Shown here piece after piece: positions 1 to 414 of a DNA stretch of 64,000 nucleotides; position 1 is the stretch's first letter; each line of letters opens with the position of its first letter. A program made the translations under genes and the position numbers. The notes under the pieces are model-generated. The model saw nothing but the letters and a program-made list of their open reading frames with translations, did not search any database and was not told the origin of the DNA. Where the stretch lies: NCBI GenBank assembly GCA_018266455.1, contig JAFEAJ010000022.1:1-64000 (forward strand), read 5' to 3'. This stretch comes from Bacteroidota bacterium (GTDB lineage: Bacteria > Bacteroidota > Bacteroidia > Chitinophagales > Chitinophagaceae).

Positions 1-102
1 TCGAGTCTCTGCGAGGACACTAAACCTTCCCACATGTTCTTTGCCTATATCCTTTTTAGCAAAAAGCTGAACAAATACTACATCGGCTCCACTAAAGACA
101 TC
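1..102. repeat. 102-bp direct repeat, left copy
   Basis: Bases 1-102 recur without a mismatch at 313-414, an offset of 312 bp. The repeat starts inside a T-loop-like sequence, runs through a short spacer and covers the first 23 codons of a GIY-YIG ORF. Because the left copy begins at base 1, it may extend further left, outside the window. Confidence 0.95.
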
Positions 103-279
103 AGCCTAAGGATAAAAAGGCACAACAACAGCACAGAAAAGTTCACTTCGACAGGCGTTCCCTGGGAATTGAAATACTTTGAGCGCTTTTCAACACTATC
201 TGAGGCCCGGAAAAGAGAAACGGAAATAAAGAAGAAGAAGAGCAGGGCCTATATCGAGGCCCTTGTCAACAGTTGGTAG
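34..279 (+). CDS. Small GIY-YIG nuclease domain protein
   Basis: 81 residues, consisting only of a GIY-YIG fold as in the UvrC N-terminal domain and stand-alone bacterial GIY-YIG proteins. The first strand carries FAYIL, the second the YYIGST motif near residues 15-20; a basic LRIKRHN helix and a glutamate in the helix SEARKRETEI follow, at the usual catalytic Arg and Glu positions. The C-terminus is a lysine-rich stretch. The stop codon sits in the D-loop part of a tRNA-shaped sequence, so gene and tRNA-like element overlap. A truncated second copy starts at 346. Substrate is unknown; DNA cleavage is inferred from the family only. Confidence 0.85.
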   Translation: MFFAYILFSKKLNKYYIGSTKDISLRIKRHNNSTEKFTSTGVPWELKYFERFSTLSEARKRETEIKKKKSRAYIEALVNSW

Positions 280-331
280 GGCATCCCGATTCTTACCGGG
301 AGGGCCCGGAGCTCGAGTCTCTGCGAGGACA
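259..331 (+). other. tRNA-shaped segment overlapping the end of the GIY-YIG gene
   Basis: The segment has tRNA spacing. A seven-base acceptor strand at 259-265 pairs with 324-330 at six positions, one of them a wobble. A D-loop-like AGTTGGTA lies at 271-278. A perfect 5-bp anticodon-type stem is formed by 284-288 and 297-301, with an eight-base loop. A five-base variable region is followed by a 5-bp T stem (307-311 with 319-323) closing the seven-base loop CTCGAGT. The D stem does not pair and the anticodon loop is one base too long, so it is probably a degenerate or mimic tRNA rather than a working one. No CCA is encoded. Confidence 0.55.
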
Positions 332-414
332 CTAAACCTTCCCACATGTTCTTTGCCTATATCCTTTTTAGCAAAAAGCTGAACAAATACTACATCGGCT
401 CCACTAAAGACATC
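313..414. repeat. 102-bp direct repeat, right copy
   Basis: Exact duplicate of bases 1-102. Identity stops at 414/415, where the copied GIY-YIG reading frame runs into unrelated sequence. Confidence 0.95.
346..414 (+). pseudogene. Truncated second GIY-YIG copy (first 23 codons)
   Basis: The ATG at 346 and 23 codons are identical to the start of the gene at 34, ending after the YYIGSTKDI motif. From 415 the sequence is unrelated but stays open by chance and fuses in frame with the next gene. The copy lacks the basic helix and the catalytic glutamate, so it cannot encode a working nuclease. Confidence 0.8.

Follow-up and report, generated by a model that had tools for sequence, protein, structure and literature searches.

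The left end of the stretch of DNA analysed here (64,000 nucleotides of a Bacteroidota bacterium, hereafter the window) carries a small GIY-YIG nuclease gene set between an intact tRNA-Lys gene and a broken copy of that gene which bears a hairpin, and nuclease genes adjoining intact tRNA genes were found for 16 tRNA isotypes. We consider this arrangement to be probably the product of a minimal, freestanding homing-type nuclease gene, which inserts in a tRNA gene, rebuilds one half of it and leaves a hairpin-marked remnant. It has the look of a selfish gene, one that passes between tRNA genes and does not destroy them.

The window is contig C14 from its first base, and position 1 is therefore a contig start. 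Bases 1–102 are identical to bases 313–414 at all 102 positions, at an offset of 312, which bears out the exact duplication described in an earlier note on this DNA that had been made from the sequence alone. A search of the whole genome revealed that the last 102 bases of another contig, C29, equal window positions 1–102 exactly, the overlap having the length of the repeat. Since assemblers break at true repeats in just this manner, the 102-bp repeat is confirmed as genuine and not an artefact. Short-read assembly breaks at repeats of this size; hence, the array caused the contig edge and not the reverse, and it comprises at least one full and one partial unit. The earlier note had allowed for an assembly-edge artefact and for the unit having no further copies in the genome or its relatives; apart from the origin of the edge, it is now clear that relatives hold many copies. 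Upstream of the shared 102 bases, C29 carries an intact tRNA-Lys(CTT) gene (C29:75070–75143, corresponding to 2071–2144 of locus L005, on which it was called by ARAGORN). This gene lay outside what the earlier note could see, and by the exact 102-base overlap its last 20 nt (nt 55–74) form window positions 1–20. The joined C29–C14 order is tRNA-Lys, spacer, GIY-YIG gene, broken tRNA-Lys, spacer, the first 23 codons of a GIY-YIG gene and unique flank.

All features of the unit lie on the plus strand. The first copy of the direct repeat (1–102), defined by sequence identity, contains the tRNA 3′ end, the spacer and GIY-YIG codons 1–23, and the complete nuclease ORF of 81 aa, taken from the ORF list and Pfam, spans 34–279. 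Comparison with the intact tRNA places a tRNA-Lys stub (nt 13–26) at 270–283, overlapping the end of the ORF, whose stop codon TAG falls in D-loop sequence of the stub. The 18-nt hairpin TCCCGATTCTTACCGGGA at 284–301 replaces tRNA nt 27–43, the anticodon arm, as the tRNA pieces stop at 26 and restart at 44; with five perfect pairs it is weaker than most. The displaced tRNA 3′ part (302–332, nt 44–74) has three mismatches to the intact gene. What the earlier note had called a tRNA-like segment is thus indeed derived from a tRNA, not as a tRNA gene, however, but as a broken copy of tRNA-Lys bearing a hairpin, and ARAGORN finds no tRNA gene in this segment of the window. The second repeat copy (313–414) includes, at the distal end of the array, an N-terminal fragment of a second nuclease copy (346–414, 23 codons). 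The note had this copy stop after 23 codons; it is the similarity that ends there, at 414, for there is no stop at codon 23 and the frame continues into the next ORF, 346–993. The likely native start of this ORF is at 505, and automatic annotation of 346–993 may yield a chimeric protein of 215 aa.

The 81-aa protein matches Pfam PF01541 (E 1.7e-15), in agreement with the small GIY-YIG gene recognised in the earlier note. Nine columns are invariant in an alignment of 31 relatives, including Tyr5, Tyr16, Gly18, Arg26 and Glu62, and the protein is a GIY-YIG catalytic domain with conserved catalytic residues (the Tyr, Tyr, Arg and Glu columns). This domain stands alone, as Pfam recognised no separate DNA-binding domain such as NUMOD, and an NCBIfam model of a group I intron endonuclease was matched over its initial part alone, below its cut-off. 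Closest by sequence are the UPF0213 structures 1zg2 (E 4.3e-16, profile residues 2–78) and 1ywl (E 2.1e-13, profile residues 2–73), with a profile similarity that spans the whole small domain; next after these, the nearest solved structures include structure-specific nucleases of the SLX1 kind. The dN/dS ratio has a median of 0.19 and a maximum of 0.45 (11 usable pairs), which points to purifying selection on the nuclease.

Relatives were drawn from 60 related genomes, from 198 genomes of the phylum (at least 90% completeness), from which the best-scoring loci were retrieved for analysis, and from a named genome collection that included Saganbacteria, Shapirobacteria, Woesebacteria, Wolfebacteria and Marinimicrobia records. 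Of the 126 GIY-YIG clusters, which come from Bacteroidota and from some candidate-phylum genomes, 107 lie within 250 nt of an intact tRNA gene on the same strand, and two have one on the opposite strand. Eleven of the 19 clusters other than those 107 have a contig end within about 190 nt. Sequence matching the same tRNA is present on the far side of the ORF at 101 of 105 testable loci, the match being short in some. Phage and plasmid records and viral contigs, considered as a vehicle, held no close relative apart from three weak viral-contig loci.

Two mirror-image types of the arrangement occur. In type A the order is intact tRNA, terminator, GIY-YIG gene, stub, hairpin and tRNA 3′ part, and in type B it is tRNA 5′ part, hairpin, stub, GIY-YIG gene, promoter region and intact tRNA. 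Between the nuclease gene and the hairpin, the stub amounts to a median of 16 tRNA nt (47 clear loci). The position of the interruption is characteristic of the isotype: it lies between nt 28 and 46 in tRNA-Val, mostly between 50–51 and 59–60 in tRNA-Asp, mostly between 37 and 48 in tRNA-Met and mostly between 48–49 and 57–58 in tRNA-Gly. Both types may use one site, as seen in tRNA-Pro (28 and 45–46) and in tRNA-Asp, for which the type A locus L028 and the type B locus L036 share the site between 38 and 51, the site given above being the commoner one of type A. In the remnant the putative target site is interrupted by the hairpin, and in the rebuilt tRNA it is unchanged. The genome of the window holds two further broken tRNAs, 5′ parts that lie directly upstream of an intact tRNA and have no nuclease gene. 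One of them, a tRNA-Lys, occupies 1996–2036 of L005 (on C29, upstream of tRNA-Lys), with the tRNA part at 1996–2018 followed by the same 18-nt hairpin. The tRNA-Lys gene of this genome is thus flanked by remnants of both mirror types, both of which are interrupted after nt 26. The other is a tRNA-Asn remnant at 1672–1730 of L006 (on C55, upstream of tRNA-Asn) with the hairpin TCCCGATTGTTATCGGGA; this remnant resembles a unit from which the ORF has been lost.

The hairpin is conserved as a structure and not as a sequence. When inserts were delimited by the two flanking tRNA pieces alone, blind to pairing (n = 62), a perfect stem of at least 6 bp was found in 53 of them, compared with a mean of 1.5 and a maximum of 5 in shuffled inserts; about nine inserts have no such stem. 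The insert sequences are distinct in 61 of 62 cases, and the majority start with TCC and finish with GGA. An orthologous tRNA-Pro insertion is shared by the genomes G107 and G244, in which the tRNA cluster upstream and the gene downstream also correspond. Its hairpin TGGCGCTTAGGCGCCA is identical in both to the last letter, and the terminators that follow the tRNA are not alike. Exact palindromes of the form TCCCGA(0–8)TCGGGA number four in the 3.9 Mb of the window genome, and the tRNA-Asn remnant accounts for one of these. That the hairpin is a genome-wide repeat which merely landed in remnants was considered and rejected, palindromes elsewhere being too rare to account for 53 of 62.

On a tree of 122 nuclease sequences, which is based on 81 columns only and leaves many forks unresolved, the isotype changes 37 times, as counted on those 91 rows for which a host family is given. 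After shuffling of isotypes within host family, 62.9 ± 2.4 changes are required (0 of 200 shuffles as low), and the host family needs 55 changes. The nuclease tree follows the tRNA isotype better than the host family, and these counts argue for a horizontal spread in which the target stays fixed. Three loci that have no adjoining tRNA (L030, L038 and L054) form one group on the tree with modest support.

Arrays of 3–5 units with a period of 317–366 lie mid-contig in the finished genomes G228, G244 and G190, anchored at an intact tRNA. Distal N-terminal fragments are present in 10 of the 22 type A multi-copy clusters that have a full proximal copy, reverse cases being rare, and the outermost broken copy in type A arrays is nearly always such a fragment, as in the window. 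Sites lacking the element were found in the genus of G228, where G267, G259 and G292 share the upstream region, the tRNA-Met and the downstream gene and have no GIY-YIG gene. Their tRNA-Met is identical to the rebuilt tRNA-Met of the G228 array; since the terminator after it differs in G228, the comparison leaves the exact right boundary unfixed. No clean element-free site was obtained for L085, whose downstream gene sits elsewhere in the genomes examined, and in the genus of the window the downstream gene has no tRNA-Lys adjoining it in the same orientation, these genomes being too diverged for synteny.

We therefore propose a homing-type reading, as it accommodates the tRNA adjacency, the tRNA match on the far side, the hairpin inserts at isotype-specific sites and the sites shared by types A and B, together with the isotype tracking, the arrays in finished contigs, the element-free sites, the insertion common to G107 and G244, the dN/dS ratios and the precedent of the phage nuclease SegB discussed below. 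The earlier note had suggested a homing-type element that copies itself at tRNA-like sites, which fits the same-strand adjacency, the many isotypes and the isotype-tracking tree; homing itself is what we infer, as are DNA cleavage, the growth of arrays by re-homing and a hairpin that blocks re-cutting. The small GIY-YIG nuclease, the sole gene of the element, would cut one kind of tRNA gene at one interruption site. The element would come to sit inside the tRNA gene and bring its own copy of one tRNA half, whereby the tRNA is rebuilt on one side: the 3′ half and terminator in type A, the promoter and 5′ half in type B. The half that it displaces would stay beyond the nuclease gene, parted from the short tRNA stub by the hairpin at the interruption site. 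The tRNA halves would be the homology arms by which the element is copied into further genes for the same tRNA, and this would account for a spread from one bacterial family to another in which the tRNA target does not change. As the rebuilt tRNA is unchanged in sequence, it may be struck again, each strike adding an adjoining unit, and repeated strikes would build arrays in which the units close to the tRNA are intact and the outermost one is eroded. The remnant, in turn, would be protected from re-cutting by its hairpin. For the window, the target would be tRNA-Lys(CTT); the interruption lies between nt 26 and 44, and one full unit and a 23-codon remnant are present.

Several points speak against homing. 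With the GIY-YIG domain alone in the protein, site-specific recognition is only putative. The rebuilt tRNA equals that of element-free sites, so the host is not obviously protected, and a hairpin that merely blocks re-cutting would need no palindrome. Finally, isotype tracking could also stem from the physical linkage of the nuclease gene to its tRNA arms and not from nuclease specificity.

The main rival to homing starts from the hairpin. The nuclease would act on its own hairpin as a structure-specific enzyme like SLX1, and the freed tRNA ends would recombine with intact copies, so that the tRNA itself goes unrecognised and the arms alone choose the target. The structure that is kept while its sequence varies between elements, the identity of the hairpin in the two orthologous tRNA-Pro insertions next to differing terminators, the place of SLX1 nucleases among the closest solved structures and the lack of a DNA-binding domain are all consistent with this model. 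We nevertheless judge it rather unlikely, as an interruption position that is characteristic of the isotype across hosts is more directly explained by nuclease specificity, and as about nine of the 62 inserts lack a perfect stem of at least 6 bp.

Quite improbable, in our estimation, is a domesticated host system that acts in tRNA gene dosage, in the quality control of tRNA or in defence against phages, and in which the nuclease has the broken tRNA as its decoy or as a regulatory RNA. The purifying selection on the nuclease and the fact that G107 and G244 have long kept one insertion would agree with such a role, and the dosage of tRNA-Tyr in phage T6 is raised by SegB amplification (PMC13096335). 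The repeated units, however, hold broken tRNAs, so that dosage does not rise; the distribution is patchy, with a match in 22 of 60 near relatives; and profiles of defence systems match weakly and partially, and only to nuclease domains.

Ordinary tandem duplication, by which tRNA loci that recombine often would have a GIY-YIG gene beside them by chance and hairpins as neutral dispersed repeats in dead copies, is already disfavoured and seems to us marginally less probable still. TCCCGA...TCGGGA hairpins do occur elsewhere in these genomes, often as terminators, and distal units are eroded. Against this stand the four exact palindromes in the window genome when compared with hairpins at 53 of 62 tRNA interruptions, the purifying selection on the nuclease, and the 16 isotypes, the ORF on the strand of the tRNA and the isotype-tracking tree, none of which is expected by chance. 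An assembly artefact deserves next to no credence: although the repeat is placed exactly where C14 begins and C29 ends, its second copy runs on into unique flank in the window, and the same architecture with true tandem arrays in the middle of finished chromosomes rules it out.

When compared to characterised systems, the proposed homing-type element comes closest to the freestanding GIY-YIG homing endonucleases of T-even phages, among them SegB, which cuts inside tRNA genes and drives a nuclease-dependent tandem amplification of tRNA and segB (PMC13096335). By our own reading, its motif RAWTSGAAC (PMC13096335) would be the reverse complement of the tRNA T-loop, GTTCSAWTY. Both systems have a GIY-YIG nuclease gene among tRNA genes and tandem units. 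Unlike SegB, the genes described here are chromosomal and hardly found in phage, plasmid or viral collections, their proteins have only about 80 aa, their clades follow the isotype, and each gene lies between an intact tRNA and its broken hairpin-bearing copy, the repeated tRNA part being non-functional. No sequence relationship to phage SegB-type proteins was detected, the window protein having no match in PHROG at E 0.001 and none by tblastn against phages at 1e-5. Elements that integrate into tRNA genes by tyrosine integrases likewise restore the tRNA and leave a partial direct repeat. In contrast to these, the only gene here is the GIY-YIG nuclease, no integrase gene being present in the repeated units of about 312–366 bp; the duplicated part reaches the anticodon arm or D-loop; and there are mirror-image 5′ and 3′ types with a hairpin that replaces the interruption site. 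The small UPF0213 GIY-YIG proteins resemble the window protein most by sequence and in their single-domain size; to our knowledge, no tRNA-nested, array-forming arrangement as described here is known for them, and we know of no settled function of these proteins. The loci differ from group I introns and inteins, whose host gene is restored by splicing, in that an intact tRNA is present as DNA beside the unit. Homing endonuclease genes have been described in insertion sequences of rRNA genes of CPR bacteria (PMC11270868); a location in RNA genes and CPR hosts are common to both, some of our loci being CPR as well, but those nucleases lie within rRNA genes, whereas here the tRNA appears to be rebuilt by duplication, with no splicing.

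Freestanding GIY-YIG homing nucleases are thus known already, and what is new is the rebuilt half of the tRNA together with a remnant marked by a hairpin. No published description of a GIY-YIG gene between an intact and a hairpin-bearing broken tRNA was found in the open-licence PMC literature, and a subscription paper could exist. If the homing reading is true, very small nuclease genes that keep to one target and rebuild it have colonised the tRNA genes of bacterial chromosomes, a third solution beside introns or inteins and integrase attachment sites. Many of the small GIY-YIG genes and unusual broken tRNAs that occur in genomes of Bacteroidota would then have an explanation, as would, probably, some of the breaks in assemblies at tRNA loci, and this reading would provide natural nuclease lineages with different tRNA targets that are open to testing. 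More tentatively, and with somewhat less than even confidence, we suggest that these loci may form a distinct and widespread class of minimal elements, composed of a GIY-YIG nuclease of about 80 aa, a rebuilt tRNA half and a sequence-free, site-marking hairpin, with one lineage per isotype in Bacteroidota, candidate-phylum bacteria and beyond, that would move by hairpin-dependent recombination without integrase, intron or transposase.

Many nuclease genes lie less than 200 nt from a contig end (L084–L107 and many other contig ends). It is therefore probably the arrays that break assemblies at tRNA loci, and draft genomes understate the number of copies. The genome G228 has about 70 TCCCGA(0–8)TCGGGA palindromes, most of those listed being the 16-nt hairpin TCCCGAAGCCTCGGGA or near variants of it, a dispersed family not observed at such density in the other seven genomes. 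At L090 (G084) and L094 (G206) an intact tRNA of the same isotype is present on both sides of the nuclease unit or units, which is perhaps a state without a broken copy.
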